This document shows, piece by piece, positions 11,145 through 38,224 of a DNA stretch of 64,000 nt (positions are counted from its first letter, which is position 1; the number at the start of each line of letters is the position of its first letter). Source of the stretch: Natrinema versiforme JCM 10478 (GTDB lineage Archaea; Halobacteriota; Halobacteria; Halobacteriales; Natrialbaceae); NCBI RefSeq assembly GCF_000337195.1, contig NZ_AOID01000021.1:37227-101226 (forward strand). The letters run 5' to 3'. The notes under the pieces are model-generated. The model searched no databases. It had not been told where the DNA came from and saw only the letters and a list, made by a program, of their open reading frames with translations. A program made the translations under genes and the position numbers.

Positions 11145-11813
11145 ATGCGAATTGCACTACTTGGCGGTACCGGCGACATCGGCGAGGGGCTCGCGCTCCG
11201 ACTTGCCCGCGACACGAGCCACGAGATCCTCATCGGCTCCCGGGACCCAGAGAAGGCCCGTGACGCCGTCGCAGAGTACGAAGGCGAACTCGCCGACCGC
11301 ACCGACGAGGTCGACATCAAGGGCTTCGGCAACGAGATGGCGGCCGACCGGGCCGATGTCGTCGTCCTCAGCGTCCCGCCGTACTACGTCGGCGACACCG
11401 TCGAAGCGGTCGCCGACAGCCTTGACGCGGACTCCGTGCTGGTGACGCCCGCGGTCGGCATGCAGGGCGACGAGGACGGCCTACACTATCACCCGCCCGA
11501 TGCCGGCAGCGTCACCGAACTCGTCGCCGCGCGGGCCCCCGACGAGGTCCCGGTCGTCGGCGCGTTCCACAACCTCGCGGCCGACGCGCTGTCGAACCTC
11601 GACAACGAACTCGATCTCGACACGCTCGTCGTCGCTGACGACGACGCGGCCGGCGACACGGTGCTGACGATCGCCAACGAGGTCGACGGGCTGCGCGCGC
11701 TCGAGGCGGGGCCGCTGGCCAACGCGGCCGAAGTCGAGAGCGTCACGCCGCTTGTCATCAACATCGCGAAGTACAACGAGGACATGCACGACGTCGGCGT
11801 GAAGTGGACCTGA
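11145..11813 (+). CDS. npdG: NADPH-dependent F420 reductase (F420H2:NADP+ oxidoreductase type)
   Basis: A 222-residue protein of the family that moves hydride between coenzyme F420 and NADP. The N-terminal Rossmann motif is MRIALLGGTGDIGEG, followed by ILIGSRDPEKA, which reads the adenosine phosphate of NADP. Then come VVVLSVPPYYV, VTPAVGMQ and GAFHNLAADAL, and the C-terminal helix LANAAEVESVTPLVINIAK typical of the family. The start at 11145 is supported by a Shine-Dalgarno sequence. Cytoplasmic; it probably supplies or drains reduced F420 in the cell. Other members of this superfamily act on other substrates, so the exact reaction rests on family knowledge. Confidence 0.87.
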   Translation: MRIALLGGTGDIGEGLALRLARDTSHEILIGSRDPEKARDAVAEYEGELADRTDEVDIKGFGNEMAADRADVVVLSVPPYYVGDTVEAVADSLDADSVLVTPAVGMQGDEDGLHYHPPDAGSVTELVAARAPDEVPVVGAFHNLAADALSNLDNELDLDTLVVADDDAAGDTVLTIANEVDGLRALEAGPLANAAEVESVTPLVINIAKYNEDMHDVGVKWT

Positions 11814-11965
11814 GCGGACGAGAACGCGCCCGACGCCGTCGCGTACCGTTCCTGACTTCAACCCGCCTTCTCTAACCGGCCTTCGATCTCGAGACCACCT
11901 CGTGGCCACTCCGCAAGCGTGGCTCCGCGTCGGTACTGATCACGAGGAGAAAAGCGACCGGTCAG

Positions 11966-12235
11966 TTACGCGCCGGCCGACTCGAGGGCGTCCTCGATGT
12001 CGTCGCGCTGGGTGACGCCGACGAAACGCTCGACGATGCCGTCGTCGTTCTCGATGATGAGCGTCGGCAGCGATCGAACCTGATACTCGTTTGCCACGTC
12101 CTGTTTCTCGTCGACGTTTACTTTCTCGACTTCGAATCGGCCCTCCCAGTCGTCCTCGAGCTCCTCGAGGATCGGGTCCTGGGTCTTGCAGGGGCCACAC
12201 CAGTCCGCGTAGAAGTCCTTAAGTGTGACAGTCAT
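11966..12235 (-). CDS. Thioredoxin
   Basis: A compact 89-residue thioredoxin with the redox pair in DWCGPCKTQD (C13 and C16), the cis-proline segment VRSLPTLIIEN and the GVTQRDDIEDAL end. It is shorter than bacterial thioredoxins because the first strand and helix are trimmed, as is common in haloarchaeal versions. ATG at 12235 is chosen because the extra residues from the upstream in-frame ATG at 12286 do not belong to the fold. It reduces disulfides of cytoplasmic proteins. It is transcribed divergently from the Sec61-beta gene, with about 115 bases between them. Confidence 0.92.
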   Translation of the reverse strand: MTVTLKDFYADWCGPCKTQDPILEELEDDWEGRFEVEKVNVDEKQDVANEYQVRSLPTLIIENDDGIVERFVGVTQRDDIEDALESAGA

Positions 12236-12352
12236 GCGGTCAACGCTAGTTGCCACGCGCCGCGCATAAGGGTTTCCCACTGCCAATACGTTGCCGTGAT
12301 CGGCGACGCGATCGGTCGAAAGGTTTAGTTTCGGGGGCCCATAGGAACGGGT

Positions 12353-12514
12353 ATGGATAAAGGACAGAACACCGGTGGCCTGATGTCCAGTGCCGGACTC
12401 GTTCGGTACTTCGACTCCGAGGACTCGAACGCCATCCGTATCGACCCCAAGACGGTCATCGCGTTCGGCGTGCTGCTGGGCGTGCTGGTCCAGCTGCTGA
12501 CGATCGTCTCGTAA
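12353..12514 (+). CDS. Preprotein translocase subunit Sec61-beta (SecG)
   Basis: A 53-residue tail-anchored protein. The N-terminal half, [20 protein letters not shown], carries the Sec61-beta signature in which SSAGLVRYF leads into the membrane. One C-terminal helix follows ([20 protein letters not shown]) and ends at the last residue. It is the small non-essential subunit of the SecYEG/Sec61 channel in the cytoplasmic membrane. Its small size makes it easy to miss. It converges on the glycosyltransferase gene. Confidence 0.9.
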
Positions 12515-12619
12515 CGCGCCGATCAGCCACTTTTCTCACTCCCATCACAGATAGCGGCAGCGCCGGTGAGCGAACGTCTAGTTTTTGCCACCATCGCGGC
12601 GTCGCCGCCCCCGGGGCTC

Positions 12620-13306
12620 TCAGTAGTCCGCTCTGAGCCGCTCGAGGTCGAGCGCGAGGTAGTGCCACAACGTTCCCGTCAGCCCCTGATCGGCGATCCG
12701 CCGGCCCGAACTCTCGACCAAGACGGTCGGACAGTAGGCCGTCGGAAACCGACCGGCGAGCGCTCGGCTGAAGGCCGTGTCCTCGTTCGACACGCGGGGA
12801 AAGCCGCCGATTTCCTCGAACGCTCGCCGGTGGACGAGACAGTTGAACCCCGGCAGGATCGGGCGCTCGAGCCGCGAGAAGACGTGATTGATCGTCAGTT
12901 CCATCAGTTTCGCCCGTCGCGGGCCGGTGATCCGACAGGACGAACTCGCGGCCGCGAGCCCGTTGGCCTCGACGAAGCCGAGCAGGTCGGTCAGATAGTT
13001 CGCCCGCACCCGCGTGTCCGCGTCGATGAAGGCCAGCCACTCGCCGGCCGCCCGTTCGGCCCCGAGGTTCCGAGCGGCAGCGATGCTCGAGCCGGCGTCC
13101 CGGACGACGGTCGCGCTGTACTCGCGGGCGATCGCCGGCGTTTCGTCGGTCGAACAGCCGTCGACGACGATCACCTCGTACTCGTAGCTCGTGTCCAGTG
13201 CGGTGAGACTCGCCAGAGTACCCCGAAGATAGTCGGCCTCGTTTCGCGCCGGGATTACGAAACTCACGTCGCAGTCGTCGTCGCCCGCTCGATCGTCGCT
13301 CGCCAT
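12620..13306 (-). CDS. Family 2 glycosyltransferase
   Basis: A 228-residue GT-A-fold enzyme. The nucleotide-sugar-binding start is VSFVIPARNEADYL, then EVIVVDGCSTDET, AAARNLGAERAAGEW and the metal-binding DAD of FIDADTRV (D95 to D97). GFNCLVHRRAFEEIGGF and SNEDTAFSRALAG supply the acceptor-side and ED motifs. No membrane helix is visible, so it is probably peripheral and works on a lipid-linked or protein glycan. ATG at 13306 is preferred over one 36 bases upstream. No other glycosylation gene is nearby, which leaves the pathway open. Confidence 0.9.
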   Translation of the reverse strand: MASDDRAGDDDCDVSFVIPARNEADYLRGTLASLTALDTSYEYEVIVVDGCSTDETPAIAREYSATVVRDAGSSIAAARNLGAERAAGEWLAFIDADTRVRANYLTDLLGFVEANGLAAASSSCRITGPRRAKLMELTINHVFSRLERPILPGFNCLVHRRAFEEIGGFPRVSNEDTAFSRALAGRFPTAYCPTVLVESSGRRIADQGLTGTLWHYLALDLERLRADY

Positions 13307-31268: not shown

Positions 31269-32330
31269 TTATGCAGGAAGGGAAAACGTGACCTCGACCG
31301 GGGTTTTGCCCTGATAATCTGGATGGTCTAAATCAGTATACAGGACAAGCGTGACTGTTTTTCCGCTCATATCATGCTCGGAAGACCACTGTCTCTCTTC
31401 GTAGAACCGTTTCAGCTCAACTGTCGCATTCTCACTAGATTCTATCGTCGCCTGCTCATCCAAATCGTATCTTTGGGCTTCTGGACCGACCAAGAGGCGT
31501 CCATCACGGTTTAGACTTCCGTCACTACCTCCGCCTGTTATCTGAACCTCGTCCCCGTCTGGATCCCAGCCTCTAGCTGTCTTTTCGAGGTAATCGGCAT
31601 CGCCGGCCTCGCTTATCGATATACCCGTTATCGTCACGTCGGATCCCCCATTAGTGATGTCAAACTGTACTTCACTGTCGACCTGCCTTCCCAACCCGTC
31701 AGGAGATCGACTTTCCGGCGATCCGTCGACGAGCTCGAGGTCGATAGTCGGGTCCGTGATCGGAATTGGGTCCTCACTCGCAGGCCCATCGCCACTATTT
31801 CCATCATCCATACAGTCAAACCAGATCCCTTCTGCTGTGTAAGTTGCTTCTCTTACCGAAATAGTGGACCCTGATCCATCTATCACGAGTGTTACTTCCG
31901 TATCATCTGCTGAACCGCTGCCAGGCCCACATTCAAGTTCGACTGATTGCGGCTGATCGGTTGAGTCAAGTCCTGAAAAATCATTGTTATTTGCAACCTT
32001 CAGAATTGAATTGTCAGCTCCATCCACTGACTTGACTTTGACCGTTACATCATCGAAAGATGTGTCGGCGTTGTTCTCTAATGTGATTATATCTGAGTTC
32101 TGATATCGGTAACAAAAGGACCCGGAACGTGTATCAATACAGTCTCGATAAATGTCATCCTTAGACTCAATTTCGTCAATCCCAAGATATGCGGTTGCTG
32201 GCGTTTCGGCTGCATTGACCTGTACTGCTCTGTCAGCGGTCAGCGACGTTATCCCGAATGCCGGTCCAAGCACTGCTACTGTCCCGAGCAACACGAACAC
32301 GACCCCAAGTTTTGTGAATGTGTTCGTCAT
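31269..32330 (-). CDS. Exported four-cysteine protein with a DUF1102-like N-terminus
   Basis: A 353-residue protein. A signal peptide (TKLGVVFVLLGTVAVLGPAF) is followed by ADRAVQVNAAETPATAYLGI, which lines up with AERTVSVTTAGDDSAFLGI of the protein at 33623. The rest is Asp- and Ser-rich and strand-like. The mature part has several cysteines (YRDCIDTRSGSFCYRY, VELECGPG, WFDCMDDG), unusual for a haloarchaeal exported protein. No C-terminal anchor is visible. The sequence has markedly more A/T than its neighbours. The gene overlaps the regulator at 32327 by ATGA and is the second of the pair. I infer a surface or secreted structural role. Confidence 0.75.
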   Translation of the reverse strand: MTNTFTKLGVVFVLLGTVAVLGPAFGITSLTADRAVQVNAAETPATAYLGIDEIESKDDIYRDCIDTRSGSFCYRYQNSDIITLENNADTSFDDVTVKVKSVDGADNSILKVANNNDFSGLDSTDQPQSVELECGPGSGSADDTEVTLVIDGSGSTISVREATYTAEGIWFDCMDDGNSGDGPASEDPIPITDPTIDLELVDGSPESRSPDGLGRQVDSEVQFDITNGGSDVTITGISISEAGDADYLEKTARGWDPDGDEVQITGGGSDGSLNRDGRLLVGPEAQRYDLDEQATIESSENATVELKRFYEERQWSSEHDMSGKTVTLVLYTDLDHPDYQGKTPVEVTFSLPA

Positions 32331-32899
32331 GGTGGTCGTTCCATCTCCCCGAGTCGCATCCGTCGATTCTGGACCACATGGATGGCCGCGGAGACGGCAA
32401 ATAGCGAAAACACTAGCGTCGTCCACCCTAGCTCAGGCACTGTCTCTGTCGGAACCACTTCAAGCCACAAGCCACCTATCACGACCGCGCCGACGGCGGT
32501 CAGCCCCAAGTAGTAGATGCCCCAAGAAACCGAATTGCCGGGGACGATGTCGAGATAGACATCTAACTCGGCCGCCTCGTCAGTGAGTTCGATTGTCCGG
32601 TCGTCGAACTTGATTATATCCGCACGCTCAAGTGTGGGCAAATGTGTCTGCTGTAACGAGGTGTACACTCGTTTTCGTTCCGCAGAGGTGATTGCTTCGA
32701 CCTCCTTGTCGAGTTCCCAAGCGGCGACGTGTTCGGCGAGGTCACCCAGCGTAACTGGATTGTCCTCTTGCTTGCAGTAGTGTATGGTGTAGCGGCGGCG
32801 CTGGTTGCTCAACAGATCGAAAATTTCGCCTTCCCGCGACTGATCGTTCTGACCTGTCGTCCCCGCCGTACTCGGTTTGCTCTCGCTGGTCGTCGCCAT
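32327..32899 (-). CDS. Membrane-anchored winged-helix regulator (DUF7344 type)
   Basis: A 190-residue protein. Residues about 22-115 form a winged-helix domain (FDLLSNQRRRYTIHYCKQED, then VTLGDLAEHVAAWE, RKRVYTSLQQTHLPTLERAD and DDRTIELT). Two hydrophobic helices follow, GIYYLGLTAVGAVVIGGLWL and TTLVFSLFAVSAAIHVV. The layout is that of a haloarchaeal transcription regulator tied to the membrane, and DUF7344 is the nearest family that I recognise. Its stop overlaps the start of the exported protein gene by ATGA, so the two are made together. It may control this gene and the divergent surface genes. Confidence 0.8.
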   Translation of the reverse strand: MATTSESKPSTAGTTGQNDQSREGEIFDLLSNQRRRYTIHYCKQEDNPVTLGDLAEHVAAWELDKEVEAITSAERKRVYTSLQQTHLPTLERADIIKFDDRTIELTDEAAELDVYLDIVPGNSVSWGIYYLGLTAVGAVVIGGLWLEVVPTETVPELGWTTLVFSLFAVSAAIHVVQNRRMRLGEMERPP

Positions 32900-33196
32900 C
32901 TCCCTATTCAGTTGATTATCGGTGCTGTTGATATATAACGCTTGTTGCCGGCTGAAACGTTTGTTCGAGACCGATTTCCGAAGGTTATGGTGGGAATTTA
33001 CGGAGACAAAACTGAATCGGCCAGTGAGTGATGTAATCGCTACCAAACCGATTAATTATACTGCGTTCCTTCTCGCACGATGGAAGTCCGCTCGTATCTC
33101 ACAAGAAAGCCCACTTCGAAAGGGGAACCCGAGGGACCGAAACAAGTCCGATACCGCACGTTACCATCCCTATTCACACTGGATCGTAATCTCGTG
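32900..33196. other. Intergenic stretch between the regulator and a decayed gene
   Basis: About 300 bases of lower GC. It contains the promoter-like box at 32931 and another ATTATAC-type box near 33055. A plus-strand frame from 33080 crosses into the decayed gene but reads like a shadow. Confidence 0.5.
32931..32938 (-). promoter_or_regulatory. TATA-like box before the membrane-anchored regulator
   Basis: ATATATAA in plus orientation (TTATATAT on the coding strand), about 36 bases before ATG at 32899. A start site about 27 bases downstream leaves a short leader with GGGAG just before the ATG. Confidence 0.45.
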
Positions 33197-33452
33197 CTAG
33201 AGTTCGATGGAGATATCGCCGTTCTGGTTTTCGATAGCGCACGTGAGAACTGCGTTGTCCGTTTTTGGTTTCCAATCGGGGCGGCACAGTGGAACTCGGC
33301 TTCAACAGATGCGCTGTCGACTGCGATTGACACCCAGTTCTCGAGGGACAGAGAGCGATTCTCATCAGTTGCCGTTTCGACATTGACTCCTCGAGGACAG
33401 TAGTCGACCGGTTCACGGTATTGGAGCCAATTATATCATGGTACTTGTTCAT
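33197..33452 (-). pseudogene. Decayed short gene with two frameshifts
   Basis: Minus-strand pieces in three frames join into one plausible protein of about 80 residues. The start is MNKYHDIIGSNT at 33452. A frame change follows into REPVDYCPRGVNVETATDEN and RSLSLENWVSIAVDSASVEA with EFH. A two-base TG insertion then leads to CRPDWKPKTDNAVLTCAIEN and QNGDISIEL, with TAG at 33197-33199. No start codon exists in the middle frame. The quality of the joined reading is the evidence. I do not recognise the family. It may be a relic of a gene in the accessory block. Confidence 0.5.
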
Positions 33453-33476
33453 CCTGAGACTTGGAATCAGGCGTTC

Positions 33477-33509
33477 AAGACCGGCTTGAACGACCGTATG
33501 GCCGGTCTT
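33477..33509. repeat. Short inverted repeat (9-bp stem)
   Basis: AAGACCGGC at 33477-33485 and its exact complement GCCGGTCTT at 33501-33509, with a 15-base loop. It lies between the decayed gene and the DUF1102-type gene. It could be a terminator or operator; no further evidence is seen. Confidence 0.45.
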
Positions 33510-33622
33510 TCTGTGGTTCCGGTTACTCAATACAAAGGGGGAGGGGTTTGTGGATGTGAGTAGGAACTGCGCTCCGGTACCCGCTACAGGCCGTGCTGGG
33601 GCGTAGACTGGAAACAATAACC

Positions 33623-34171
33623 ATGAGAATGAATCGACGCAACGTATTAGTTGGATTGGGTACGATTGTCGCAGGCGGCGGAGCAGCGCTCGGAACGGGC
33701 GCGTTTAGCAGTGTAGAGGCAGAAAGAACCGTCAGTGTGACGACTGCTGGTGATGATAGCGCCTTCCTTGGCATTAGTGGAAATAGCGATTATGTTCAAG
33801 ACGGAGATAGTAATACCAGTGAGTTTGTCATTGATCTTGGCTCATATGGAGATCAAGAAGGAGATGGGTTCAATGAAAACGCGAAAACAGTTCTAAATGA
33901 CGTTCTCACCATCACTAACCAGGGTTCGGATGATAGTATAACGATTGGATTCGCTGAGAGTATAGATGGGTCCTCCAGTAATGAACAAACAATCGGTGTG
34001 AGTGGGGTAGGGGATGTTACTTTCTCAGTGCCTAGTGATAGTAATACGTTAGCTGCGGCTACTGGAAGCAACTCTACTGATTCTTCTGTGAAGGTCAAGA
34101 TCACCGTTGACACTTCTGTATCTGACCCTAGTGATGATGGAAGTATTGTAATTGTTGCTGATAGCTCGTAG
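33623..34171 (+). CDS. Tat-exported DUF1102/TasA-like surface protein
   Basis: A 182-residue protein. The N-terminus MRMNRRNVLVGLGTIVAGGG has a twin-arginine pair followed by a hydrophobic core ending near GAFSSVEAERT. The mature part is a strand-rich domain rich in Ser, Asp and Gly (AFLGISGNSDYVQDGDSNTS ... ENAKTVLNDVLTITNQGSDD ... VKVKITVDTS). This is the layout of DUF1102 proteins, which belong to a group of small surface beta-sandwich proteins related in pattern to TasA and camelysin. It is followed by a CARDB-like protein and a SipW-type peptidase. AT-rich codons set it apart from most neighbours. ATG at 33623 is preferred over an in-frame codon 30 bases earlier. Confidence 0.8.
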   Translation: MRMNRRNVLVGLGTIVAGGGAALGTGAFSSVEAERTVSVTTAGDDSAFLGISGNSDYVQDGDSNTSEFVIDLGSYGDQEGDGFNENAKTVLNDVLTITNQGSDDSITIGFAESIDGSSSNEQTIGVSGVGDVTFSVPSDSNTLAAATGSNSTDSSVKVKITVDTSVSDPSDDGSIVIVADSS

Positions 34172-34238
34172 CCGTTGGAAATTGACATTCATAATCGAAT
34201 GAGAAATACAGGTATCTGACTGTTCCAAGCACATTTGA

Positions 34239-35393
34239 ATGCTATCTCCCAAAATTCTATCTGCTGCTGCTACAATCTGCTTTCTCTTTGCGTTTGCAGC
34301 TCCGACTGTAGCGCTCACACTTGGTGAGGATTCCACGAGTAACGATGTTGTCCTGGAGCCGGTCGACGCCGGCTACGCGACCCTCGAGGACGGTGAACTC
34401 GTCCTCGAGTTTGCGGCGCTAAACGACCACGCAGAGACGACGTTCGCCGAGGTGTTCACAGTCGAGGTGGGTGAAAACGTCGATGACGTTGAGGCCATAT
34501 GGATCGATCACGATATCGAAGGCGTGACCTTCTATGCTGACGGTGCTGCGATTACGAACGACTCGCGGCTCGCCCTCACCGCTGGTGACACTGAGACTGT
34601 TGGCGTGACCGTCGACACTCGGATGGTACAAGAGACTACAGAGACGTTCACAATTACGGTACAGTATACCGAGACCGAGACCGATCCGAATCAGTCAGGG
34701 GGTACAAGTGGCTCGGTCTCGCCAACGATCGAAGGGACGAATCTCACTGTCTCGCCGACGACGCTCGAGACCGGCGAAACAACCACAGTGAACGCTACCT
34801 ACCGAAATCTCGGCGAGACCGAGGCGATAACGCCGCGGCTGACCGTCGACGGGACCGTCGTCGACCAGCAGTCGATCACCCTCGAGCCGGGAGAGACGAG
34901 GACAGTCAGTTTTGAGCGGCAGATGGAGTGGCCCGGAACCTACGATGTCGGCATCGCGGGCGTCGGCACCGAATCAGTGACTGTCGAGGGGCCGCCGATC
35001 GACATCGTCGACGCGACGATCGACGACGGGGAACTCACGGCTGGCGAATCGACCGCTATCCGAGCGACGGTCAGGAACCCGACCGACACGGCGGTCGATC
35101 GCACGCTCGAGGTCGCGATCGACGGCATCGTCGTCGATAGCCGGGCCGTCACGATTCCGGCGAACGGCGAGCGAACGGTCGTCTTCGAACGGCAGTTCGA
35201 CGAGGCGGGGACGTACGAGATCGATGTCAGCGGCGTCGATGCGGGGACGGTGACCGTCGACGAGCGGCCGACGCTCTCGATTCGGAACCGGGAACTGTCG
35301 GCGGCGACGACGGCGGCGATCGCGCCACCGGCGACGGCGGGGCTGTTGTTCCTCGCGATGGCTGCGAACCGGCGGTGGGCGTTCGTTCGGTAG
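34239..35393 (+). CDS. Exported CARDB-like surface protein with a C-terminal anchor
   Basis: A 384-residue protein. A signal peptide (ILSAAATICFLFAFAAPTVA) starts it. Residues about 30-150 form an unrecognised strand-rich domain (VVLEPVDAGYATLEDGELVL). Two Ig-like repeats of about 90 residues follow, each with the CARDB pattern, for example LTVSPTTLETGETTTVNATY and IDDGELTAGESTAIRATVRN. A last hydrophobic segment (TTAAIAPPATAGLLFLAMA) and a basic end (NRRWAFVR) suggest a membrane anchor. The 5' part is AT-richer than the 3' part, so the gene may be composite. It probably acts on the cell surface with the DUF1102 protein. Confidence 0.78.
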   Translation: MLSPKILSAAATICFLFAFAAPTVALTLGEDSTSNDVVLEPVDAGYATLEDGELVLEFAALNDHAETTFAEVFTVEVGENVDDVEAIWIDHDIEGVTFYADGAAITNDSRLALTAGDTETVGVTVDTRMVQETTETFTITVQYTETETDPNQSGGTSGSVSPTIEGTNLTVSPTTLETGETTTVNATYRNLGETEAITPRLTVDGTVVDQQSITLEPGETRTVSFERQMEWPGTYDVGIAGVGTESVTVEGPPIDIVDATIDDGELTAGESTAIRATVRNPTDTAVDRTLEVAIDGIVVDSRAVTIPANGERTVVFERQFDEAGTYEIDVSGVDAGTVTVDERPTLSIRNRELSAATTAAIAPPATAGLLFLAMAANRRWAFVR

Positions 35394-35462
35394 TCCTCGT
35401 CGCGAATCTCCGCCGATCGTCCGCTCCCACCGTCGCTCTCGCGAGATTTATACCGACGTAGA

Positions 35463-35471
35463 GATATAATA
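35463..35471 (+). promoter_or_regulatory. TATA-like box before the signal peptidase gene
   Basis: GATATAATA, centred about 27 bases before an ATG at 35493 that opens an eight-codon frame. The signal peptidase start lies 23 bases further. This suggests an internal promoter within the surface-protein locus. Confidence 0.4.
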
Positions 35472-35492
35472 CGGACGAACAGTCTCTACACT

Positions 35493-35519
35493 ATGATCGT
35501 CTTCGCCATCGTTCGATGA
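35493..35519 (+). CDS. Possible eight-codon leader frame
   Basis: ATG at 35493 reads MIVFAIVR and stops at TGA, which overlaps the signal peptidase ATG by ATGA. The TATA box spacing would make this the leaderless first ATG. It could couple translation into the peptidase gene, or be accidental. Confidence 0.2.
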   Translation: MIVFAIVR

Positions 35520-36694
35520 CTGGCGGGCTCGCAAAGCGAGGGGCCGGGCTCGCGATCGCACTGGTCGTCGTCCTCCTACTGGTCGGCCAACTCCTCGGGC
35601 AACCGATCCTGCTGGGCTACGTCGCGACCGGTAGCATGGAGCCGACGATGGACGCCGGCGACGGGTTCGTCGCGATTCCCAGCATCGCCGCGGGCGATGT
35701 CGAGGAGGGCGATGTGGTCGTCTTTCAGGCGAGAGAGCTCCACGACGGCGGGCTGACGACCCACCGCGTCGTCGGCGAGACCGAGGAGGGGTACGTCACG
35801 AAAGGCGACGCGAACCCGTTTACCGATCAGGACGGCGGCGAACCCCACGTCACCGAGGGCCAGATCGTCGCCGAGGTCTTGCAGGTAAACGGCAACGTCG
35901 TGACCGTTCCGTACCTCGGGAGCGCGATCATGGGCGTCCAGGGGCTCGCCGAACGGGCCTACGGCACGATCGCGCCGATACTTGGCCTGACGACGACTGC
36001 GTCCTCGGACGGCCTCGGCTCCATGCTCGTCGCAGTCGGCGTCGCCATGCTCGGCTTCGGGACGCTGCTCGAGCGGCTCGGGCCCGGCCGGCGGGAGACA
36101 CGTCGCTCGCGGTCCCGGGAGAACGTGATCGCGTTCTGGGCCGCGCTGGGACTCGTCTTACTCGTCTTCGTCACGTTCGCGACCGCGGCGATGGTCGTCC
36201 CGTCGGGGACCACCGAGTACGAACTCATCAGTACCGAGAACCCCGACGACGATCCGCAGATCGTCGCGCCGGGCGCGACGACGGAACTCTCTCGCACCGT
36301 CGACAACGCGGGCTACCTCCCGGTGGTGGTCGTCCACGAGGCGGAGAGCGGGGGGATCAGCGCCGATCCCTCGCGGCAGACGATCGGGATCCGTGACAGC
36401 GGAGAGACGACGGTGACGCTGTCGGCCCCCGAGGAGACCGGCGAGTACACGCGCCATCTCGGGGAGTACCGGTATCTCGCCGTGTTGCCGCCGTCCGTGC
36501 TGAGCTGGCTGCATTCCCTGCATCCGCTTGCGGCCATCGCGGCGGTCAACGGCATCATCGTCGGAATCGCCGTCGCCATCGTGCTCGTGCTCTTCGGCAG
36601 CGGCGACATCCGGTACCGCTCGAGCGGCGGGAACGCCCCGCTCTCGACCCGCCTCGAGCGGAAACTCCGAAAGTGGCTCCGGGACCGAGAGTAG
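35516..36694 (+). CDS. SipW-type signal peptidase I (S26B) with an extracytoplasmic domain
   Basis: A 392-residue membrane protease. After an N-terminal helix (GLAIALVVVLLLVGQLLGQP) the catalytic Ser is S40 in VATGSMEPTM. The archaeal and ER-type second residue is His (H83 in TTHRVVGET), with Asp98 in KGDAN, not the bacterial Lys. Further helices are at about residues 167-183 and 205-225. The C-terminal half holds an outside strand-rich part (TEYELISTENPDDDPQIVAP) and a last helix (IAAVNGIIVGIAVAIVLVL). SipW-type peptidases process a few dedicated exported proteins, so the neighbours at 33623 and 34239 are the likely clients. The extra domain is unusual among signal peptidases. Confidence 0.85.
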   Translation: MTGGLAKRGAGLAIALVVVLLLVGQLLGQPILLGYVATGSMEPTMDAGDGFVAIPSIAAGDVEEGDVVVFQARELHDGGLTTHRVVGETEEGYVTKGDANPFTDQDGGEPHVTEGQIVAEVLQVNGNVVTVPYLGSAIMGVQGLAERAYGTIAPILGLTTTASSDGLGSMLVAVGVAMLGFGTLLERLGPGRRETRRSRSRENVIAFWAALGLVLLVFVTFATAAMVVPSGTTEYELISTENPDDDPQIVAPGATTELSRTVDNAGYLPVVVVHEAESGGISADPSRQTIGIRDSGETTVTLSAPEETGEYTRHLGEYRYLAVLPPSVLSWLHSLHPLAAIAAVNGIIVGIAVAIVLVLFGSGDIRYRSSGGNAPLSTRLERKLRKWLRDRE

Positions 36695-36710
36695 CCGCTC
36701 GAGCCACTAC

Positions 36711-36717
36711 CCTTATA
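36711..36717 (+). promoter_or_regulatory. TATA-like box before a short frame and the DUF5305-type gene
   Basis: CCTTATA centred about 27 to 28 bases before ATG at 36742. It suggests a start site in the short upstream frame. Confidence 0.35.
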
Positions 36718-36741
36718 GGAGTCTATTTCTTTCACTTACAC

Positions 36742-36837
36742 ATGCATTGTCCCGATGTCCGACCAGTTCGGAAACGAACGGTTCGGCCAGGGGGCGCGGT
36801 CGGCGGGAGCGGCCGGCTCACGGAGGACGACGGATGA
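36742..36837 (+). CDS. Possible 31-residue leader peptide
   Basis: ATG at 36742 reads MHCPDVRPVRKRTVRPGGAV, then GGSGRLTEDDG, and stops in the ATGA overlap with the DUF5305-type start. The frame contains the GGAGG ribosome-binding site of that gene. It may be a coupling leader. Its composition is not strongly coding-like. Confidence 0.22.
   Translation: MHCPDVRPVRKRTVRPGGAVGGSGRLTEDDG
36822..36826 (+). promoter_or_regulatory. Shine-Dalgarno site of the DUF5305-type gene
   Basis: GGAGG seven bases before ATG at 36834. It fixes this start and implies a leader of about 90 bases if the box at 36711 is used. Confidence 0.65.
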
Positions 36838-38018
36838 TCGACAATCCGCGCCTCGAGTTGCTGCTCGTCAAGCAGGGGCGGGCGATCGCCATCGCGCTGG
36901 TCGTTATCGGCGTCCTCGCGATCGCCGCGACCGGATGGGCCGTCGCGAACCCGGAGACGACGACCACGCCGCAGTTCGACGAGGAGCGCGTCGCGTCCGA
37001 GGCGGGGACGAGCGCGTACGTCACCCAGAACGGCACGCTCTGGACCGAAGGCGACCGGCTCACCGACAGTTCGGTCTACGTGCTGAACGCCTCGCCAGAA
37101 CTCACTGTCGAACCGGAGACGACGCTGCGAAACGAAACCGGCGGCGTCCCGATCGAGGACGGGGACGTGACCCACGAACTGCGGATTCGGTTCGAGGCGG
37201 TCCGCGACGGCGAGACCTTCTGGAACGAGTCCCGACAAGTGCTCCGCGACTCGCCGTCGGTCGAAGACGGTGTCGCGACCTCGGAGACGACGATCGATAT
37301 GGCGGCCTACCAGCAGCGACAGCGCCAACTCGAGCGCGAAATCGGCGGTATCGGTTCGGTCGAACTCACGATGGAGCTCCGCGTCGAGTACGACACGGGG
37401 AATCATCGGGGCACGTTCACGACCGCGACGCCGGTGGTGATCACGGACGACGCCTACTGGCTGGGCGGGTCGCTGTCGGATTCGGGCTCTCACAGCCATC
37501 GGAGCGGCACGGTACGGACGACTGAGTCCCGAAGCCCGGCGCTCATCGGCGGGCTCTCGGTGCTCGGCACGCTTTCGCTTGCCGGCGGGATACTCGTCGC
37601 CCGCCGGTCGCCGACGGATCTCGAGGCCGCCCGCCGCGCGGTCCACGAACAGCGGTACGCCGAGTGGATCTCGCGGGGATCGATCCCGATGTGGATCGGC
37701 GACTACCACGTCTCGCTCGATACGCTCGAGGACGTGGTCGACGTCGCGATCGACACCAACGAGCGCGTCGTCCACGACACCCAGCGGGGGCTGTTCGCGG
37801 TCGTCAACGACGGCGTCGTCTACTACTACAGCGACCGCGGGCTCTGGGAGGAGACCGCGTGGCCGGAGATGGACTTAGAGCAACAGCCGGCCGTCATCGA
37901 CGGCGATCGGGAGATGTCCGTCGAGGAGATCGCGGAACTCGACCCGGCAGACGAGTTCGCGTCCCCCGACGATCCGGACGGGTTCGAAGACGACGAGGAC
38001 GTCTGGGAACAACTGTAG
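36834..38018 (+). CDS. DUF5305-type membrane protein
   Basis: A 394-residue protein. The first helix (AIAIALVVIGVLAIAATGWA) anchors an outside domain of about 180 residues with strand-rich patterns (YVTQNGTLWTEGDRLTDSSV, VELTMELRVEYDTGNHRGTF). A second helix (LIGGLSVLGTLSLAGGILVA) follows. A cytoplasmic part of about 130 residues contains WIGDYHVSLDTLEDVVDVAI and an acidic end (DPDGFEDDEDVWEQL). The layout matches DUF5305, which I associate with signal-peptidase loci of haloarchaea. No enzymatic motif is seen. It could help place or assemble the products of the upstream surface genes. Confidence 0.78.
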   Translation: MIDNPRLELLLVKQGRAIAIALVVIGVLAIAATGWAVANPETTTTPQFDEERVASEAGTSAYVTQNGTLWTEGDRLTDSSVYVLNASPELTVEPETTLRNETGGVPIEDGDVTHELRIRFEAVRDGETFWNESRQVLRDSPSVEDGVATSETTIDMAAYQQRQRQLEREIGGIGSVELTMELRVEYDTGNHRGTFTTATPVVITDDAYWLGGSLSDSGSHSHRSGTVRTTESRSPALIGGLSVLGTLSLAGGILVARRSPTDLEAARRAVHEQRYAEWISRGSIPMWIGDYHVSLDTLEDVVDVAIDTNERVVHDTQRGLFAVVNDGVVYYYSDRGLWEETAWPEMDLEQQPAVIDGDREMSVEEIAELDPADEFASPDDPDGFEDDEDVWEQL

Positions 38019-38224
38019 CGTCGTCGGAGCGACGTGTGCTAAACGGTGTGGCTGGATGCGGGTTTTTGCGGGACGGATCGGAGTCGGGTCCGTCAAGCAG
38101 CGAGACGATCTTTCCTCGCCGATAGCTGTGTCCTCATGGCCACTGAACTCGACTCTCGTCTCCTCCGGTGTCTCCCAGCCGCGGATCACATAGGTATAAT
38201 AGTGATAAACAAAAATCGTGATGT

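Follow-up and report, generated by a model that had tools for sequence, protein, structure and literature searches.

A probable Tat-fimbria (Tafi) pilus locus in Natrinema versiforme and signs of pilin exchange between related strains

Which surface system is encoded by a small group of genes assembled around a signal peptidase in the haloarchaeon Natrinema versiforme JCM 10478, a matrix operon of the Bacillus kind or an archaeal pilus? The genes lie between positions 31269 and 38018 of a 64,000-nucleotide stretch of contig NZ_AOID01000021.1 (hereafter the window). The cluster very probably encodes a twin-arginine-translocation (Tat) fimbria, or Tafi pilus, of a Natrinema species. Tafi are a kind of haloarchaeal surface pilus already known and only recently described. 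The description of haloarchaeal Tat-fimbriae with TafA as their core is credited to Galeva et al. (2025, iScience 28:111793, as cited in PMC12687288), and literature searches on Natrinema Tafi retrieved no paper. The composition of the taf system used here was taken from genomes and NCBIfam names.

Identity of the locus

The gene identities, their homologies, the synteny with a solved Tafi pilin and with a Haloarcula-type taf cluster, and the exchange pattern described below were computed directly. The product of the gene at 33623 has one strong relative in the PDB, entry 9P0A, entitled 'Structure of Natrinema sp. J7-2 Tafi pilus' (phmmer E 1.7e-18 for the single sequence, E 8.5e-60 for a profile). 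Natrinema gari encodes, in the locus that we call L058, a protein 100% identical to the matched 186 residues of 9P0A. To the right of this pilin stand the same CARDB, peptidase and DUF5305 genes as in the window, and to its left the same DUF7344, 31269-type and ABCE1-like genes. Both loci have a single pilin with a closely similar signal peptide (95% over 40 residues) and orthologous anchor, peptidase, DUF5305 and regulator genes. They differ in the mature pilin, which is only about 28% identical, and in an extra divergent DUF7289 gene in N. gari. That the orthologous locus encodes a filament subunit of known structure strengthens the case for a dedicated filament locus. The six gene families of the window cluster, namely pilin, TafF-like, TafC-like, S26B peptidase, DUF5305 and DUF7344, correspond to the taf gene set:

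33623 to 34171, forward strand: Tafi pilin, TafE/TafA-like, with a Tat signal peptide, 182 amino acids, putative filament subunit (PDB 9P0A and TafE homology)
34239 to 35393, forward strand: TafF-like membrane-anchored protein, 384 amino acids, with a pilin-like domain (residues 37-143), two CARDB repeats (residues 164-341) and a C-terminal hydrophobic segment (Pfam, profiles, AlphaFold)
35516 to 36694, forward strand: SipW-type signal peptidase (S26B, Ser40/His83), 392 amino acids, with a CARDB-like extracytoplasmic domain at residues ~222-330 (TIGR02228, catalytic residues, profile)
36834 to 38018 (ATG at 36834), forward strand: DUF5305 membrane protein, putative assembly or processing partner of the peptidase (Pfam PF17231, E 5.5e-50)
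32327 to 32899, reverse strand: DUF7344 winged-helix-type regulator, divergent from the pilin (Pfam E 3.4e-30)
31269 to 32330, reverse strand: TafC-like exported protein, here with a Sec-type signal (profile, and position beside DUF7344)

The initial annotation had drawn four genes as one locus, and all four open reading frames were found where it placed them, on the forward strand. Most of its descriptions held as well. The 33623 product begins with a twin-arginine signal (N-R-R-N-V-L) whose arginine pair is invariant in 15 homologues, in line with the Tat export that had been proposed. The 34239 product contains CARDB (Pfam E 3.9e-13), and the assignment of the last gene to DUF5305 is borne out by the match listed above. 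The peptidase belongs, as had been claimed, to the Ser/His type with an outside domain of its own: it scores 61.9 bits against the archaeal S26B model TIGR02228 (cut-off 51.85), its Ser40, His83 and GD motif are invariant in 69 of 69 homologues, and its outside domain is similar to the CARDB repeats (81.7%, E 1.1e-5). The label 'DUF1102-type' for the 33623 product was not sustained, as a Pfam scan returned no family at E<=1 and its relatives are the NCBIfam families TafE and TafA. The membership proposed for the cluster was right for the four genes but incomplete, leaving out the divergent DUF7344 regulator and naming the TafC-like gene at 31269 just for checking.

The mature part of the pilin matches TafE at 97.5% in hhalign, a comparison in which unrelated family pairs used as controls gave no match. 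A Pfam scan of the 31269 product likewise found no family at E<=1; its positional homologues match the N-domain of TafC (hhalign 96.7%, E 3.7e-10), and the gene sits beside DUF7344, the place of tafC in the Haloarcula-type cluster. The ATG of the TafC-like gene overlaps the stop of the regulator by 4 nucleotides (ATGA, 32327-32330), and because of this overlap the two are probably translated together.

The Haloarcula-type cluster (locus L151), from a genome that we take to be Haloarcula hispanica, encodes TafA, TafC, TafE and TafF above their NCBIfam cut-offs within 7 kb, together with DUF7344, an S26B peptidase and DUF5305. All six window gene families are thus present in it. It differs from the window in gene order and in having TafA and TafE as separate genes. 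Its TafC (11543-12682 of that locus) ends in a LamG (concanavalin-like) domain, which suggests an adhesin, while no LamG domain was found in the TafC-like protein of the window. CARDB repeats, conversely, are present in the window's TafF-like protein and were not detected in Haloarcula TafF.

The putative anchor protein encoded at 34239 would link the pilin to the membrane. In profile comparisons its N-terminal domain matches the mature pilins (98.5%, E 1.7e-15) and TafF (hhalign, 97.9%, E 5.4e-13), and the pilins had no match in the CARDB repeats, the peptidase outside domain or DUF5305. In the AlphaFold model, residues 37-143 form a beta domain, which a low-confidence linker separates from two beta repeats (164-341) that are predicted well. 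The final ~25 residues are hydrophobic and followed by arginines, resembling a membrane anchor. The TafF-like protein would form the base of the pilus, with a pilin domain tied to the membrane, because a pilin-homologous N-domain is joined to an anchor-like C-terminus. A fold search with the anchor model was dominated by Ig-like matches from the CARDB repeats and gave no useful match for the N-domain.

Several results weigh against a Tafi assignment. Most of the single-sequence similarity to 9P0A comes from the signal peptide. The NCBIfam equivalog cut-offs for TafA, TafC, TafE and TafF are not reached by the window proteins: the pilin scores 77.3 bits for TafE (cut-off 155) and 52 for TafA (cut-off 190), and the 34239 and 31269 products give no direct NCBIfam match to TafF or TafC. 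A search of the N. versiforme genome found no TafA above the cut-off. AlphaFold models the pilin with low confidence (predicted local distance difference test, pLDDT, 57), and expression and filaments at this locus are predictions from the genes. The cut-offs are to be read as naming thresholds and not as defining features, given that the solved Tafi pilin of N. gari also scores 77.3 bits for TafE and fails the same cut-off.

The initial annotation had favored a system akin to TasA and TapA with SipW, and a strict version of this idea would make the locus an archaeal homologue of the Bacillus biofilm-matrix operon, with TasA-type jellyroll subunits. Like tapA-sipW-tasA, the window groups a dedicated Ser/His signal peptidase with small exported beta proteins that are likely filament subunits, and the peptidase has a weak similarity to SipW (38.6 bits, E 7.8e-10). 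A fold search with the low-confidence pilin model gave 9P0A as the best match (E 0.01) and AbpA of the Pyrobaculum bundling pili, an archaeal extracellular pilus, as the second (7UEG, E 0.085, prob 0.44), neither of them strong. The SipW score remains far under the equivalog cut-off of 190, no TasA or camelysin match was found in Pfam, TasA is not among the 50 listed fold matches, and export is by Tat and not Sec. The subunits belong to other families, with Taf proteins and a Tafi pilus as the closest relatives. Kinship with the Bacillus operon is accordingly very unlikely, and only a resemblance remains; the locus is a single-pilin Natrinema Tafi locus and not a TasA/TapA operon. The wider proposal, a dedicated filament system that has a signal peptidase to itself, was correct in kind, with the 9P0A pilin coming from an orthologous locus of an already known system, and the statement that no filament subunit had been demonstrated in the family is out of date now that the 9P0A Tafi pilus is solved. 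Small secreted proteins encoded next to a signal peptidase do not always form polymers, but it is even less credible that these are separate secreted or cell-wall proteins, matured by a peptidase clustered with them by chance, considering that the N. gari orthologue of the pilin has been solved as a pilus subunit, that the anchor carries a pilin domain and that the arrangement is kept across the taxonomic order.

Conservation of the cluster across haloarchaea

The Tafi reading draws further on gene order. Pilin or pilins, CARDB protein, peptidase and DUF5305 follow each other in this order on one strand in 53 of 68 sampled haloarchaeal loci, so that the co-occurrence of the four genes, which had been put forward as a check, was clearly recovered and is not a chance arrangement. 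The 68 loci were sampled from peptidase matches and are biased to close relatives, hence these counts are not population frequencies. DUF5305 is present in 63 of the 68, and DUF7344 lies on the strand opposite to the peptidase in 58. The gene order is not mere inherited regional synteny, because the flanking genes of the window are found near just 21-23 of the 68 loci. The downstream neighbor gene of the window is missing from 30 of the 53 ordered loci.

Peptidase and DUF5305 are associated over a wider range. A peptidase homologue lies within ~1.5 kb of DUF5305 in 28 of 30 loci across the phylum, including genomes outside the order. Six euryarchaeal loci outside the order of N. versiforme (L111, L121, L133, L135, L137 and L138) have DUF5305 beside a distant peptidase homologue, and no pilin match was found within the short flanks searched there. 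A broader processing pair of peptidase and DUF5305 may exist beyond this order.

Some loci show additional arrangements. A gene for a protein of 900-1000 amino acids, divergent from the pilin, is placed between regulator and pilin in many Natrinema loci, among them those of N. gari (DUF7289, L058:4851-7559) and L071, L073 and L084; it is absent from the window, where no convincing remnant was found at 32900-33622. N. versiforme itself carries a second Tafi-type locus on a 19 kb contig (G000:C23:6957-13706, L038) with a TafC-like gene, DUF7344, two Tat pilins, peptidase and DUF5305. L061, L062 and L065 encode pilins that keep the conserved signal peptide but have no peptidase in the stretch compared; L061 and L065 also have a TafF-like gene. 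In those other genomes the pilins may be orphan cassettes or donors.

Replacement of the mature pilin and the anchor domain

Why do closely related loci present such different pilins? Loci with flanks 95-98% identical carry pilins that cannot be aligned. Two features of the window describe the pattern:

33623 to 33740, forward strand: conserved Tat-signal-peptide segment of the pilin gene, with the exchanged cassette predicted to begin just after it (left homology ends in 13 close pairs)
33741 to 34740, forward strand: variable cassette, comprising the mature pilin and the N-terminal pilin-like domain of the anchor (DNA identity with L039)

The nearest relative of the window, L039, has a peptidase 91% identical and a pilin of just 26%. 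DNA identity between the two is 44-67% over the pilin and the first domain of the anchor, and 83-97% over 34751-38050, save for 73% in one mostly intergenic bin of 150 nucleotides. The opposite is seen with L088, which shares the pilin (71%) and the anchor domain (78%) with the window, yet has a peptidase at 75%. Among loci with a peptidase at least 71% identical, median identity to the window is 89% for the first 40 residues of the pilin and 35% for the mature pilin, compared with 59% for the CARDB protein, 79% for the peptidase and 76% for DUF5305.

The breaks themselves are abrupt. Between L071 and L073, identity is 94.5% over a 5.1 kb stretch that ends 104 nucleotides into the pilin gene, and again 95.7% over 5 kb from 171 nucleotides into the anchor gene; nothing is alignable between the two breaks in pilin and anchor. 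L080 and L084 show the same pattern. In each of the 13 close pairs whose pilins are unlike (13/13), homology on the left stops 94-145 nucleotides downstream of the first pilin ATG, shortly beyond the signal peptide; the right end varies. Trees built for the two parts of the locus reject each other's clades in seven of seven approximately unbiased (AU) tests (p <=0.01), for clades picked after seeing the trees. Similarities of pilin and anchor domain are linked beyond peptidase similarity in a weak positive manner (partial Mantel r 0.17, P 0.016-0.018), and because this overall correlation is weak the co-exchange of pilin and anchor domain is not strict. We take these observations as replacement of the mature pilin, often together with the TafF pilin domain, by recombination between related strains, leaving the peptidase and the rest of the locus unchanged, because the breaks are sharp, the trees conflict, and pilin sharing is at odds with peptidase similarity.

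Pilin diversity could also stem from fast point-by-point divergence under diversifying selection, and the low pairwise identity of mature pilins (median 32%) and some pairs that differ gradually would fit such a process. The abrupt breaks of L071 and L073, the shared pilin of L088 at 75% peptidase identity, the shared peptidase of L039 beside an unlike pilin and the conflicting trees make gradual divergence an unlikely account. No silent pilin cassettes were found in the N. versiforme genome, where the sole match is the second locus, and a mobile-element search with the pilin yielded a single weak match to a plasmid and none to phages. The pilin gene has a GC content of 0.46, and its neighbors range from 0.62 to 0.69. 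This was not used as a sign of foreign origin, as homologous pilins elsewhere are often AT-richer too.

Proposed working and meaning

For the window locus we infer polymerisation of the pilin, anchoring, regulation and the reason for exchange. The pilin would be exported by the Tat pathway, and the dedicated Ser/His signal peptidase would remove its signal peptide. The freed pilins might then polymerise into a filament, with the TafF-like protein, in which a CARDB stalk with a hydrophobic C-terminus carries a pilin domain, holding the base to the cell. DUF5305 might assist the peptidase, as its partner in processing or in assembly. Control of the cluster would fall to the divergent DUF7344 protein, with the TafC-like protein as a putative minor exposed component. 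Cassette replacement between strains would keep the machine and change the filaments presented.

Tafi could then be a modular, strain-specific identity system, a proposal to which we give even chances. Homologous recombination guided by near-identical Tat-signal-peptide DNA and by the anchor gene would swap the mature pilin, often along with the matching pilin domain of the anchor, and different filaments would be mounted on one machine for kin recognition or virus escape. The function of the pilus might be adhesion, kin recognition or virus escape. In Sulfolobus, self-recognition is reported to depend on variable UpsA pilins (as cited in PMC8416519). Neither a pilin domain in a membrane-anchored TafF-like protein nor the cassette exchange of pilin and anchor domain was found described in the literature searched, which excluded the taf paper of Galeva et al. 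As judged from the genomes compared, new here are the TafF-like anchor with a pilin domain and two CARDB repeats, the TafC-like gene at 31269 overlapping the DUF7344 gene, and the apparent exchange between related strains of the exposed part of the pilin, which is what looks new beside the Tafi already described.

Many haloarchaeal loci with SipW, CARDB and DUF5305, annotated as a signal peptidase with unknown proteins, are now placed in the Tafi system. A pilin domain marks the likely membrane base of the Tafi pilus. With pilin and anchor domain exchanged, the contact surfaces of the two proteins become testable, as does kin recognition or virus evasion by filament swapping.

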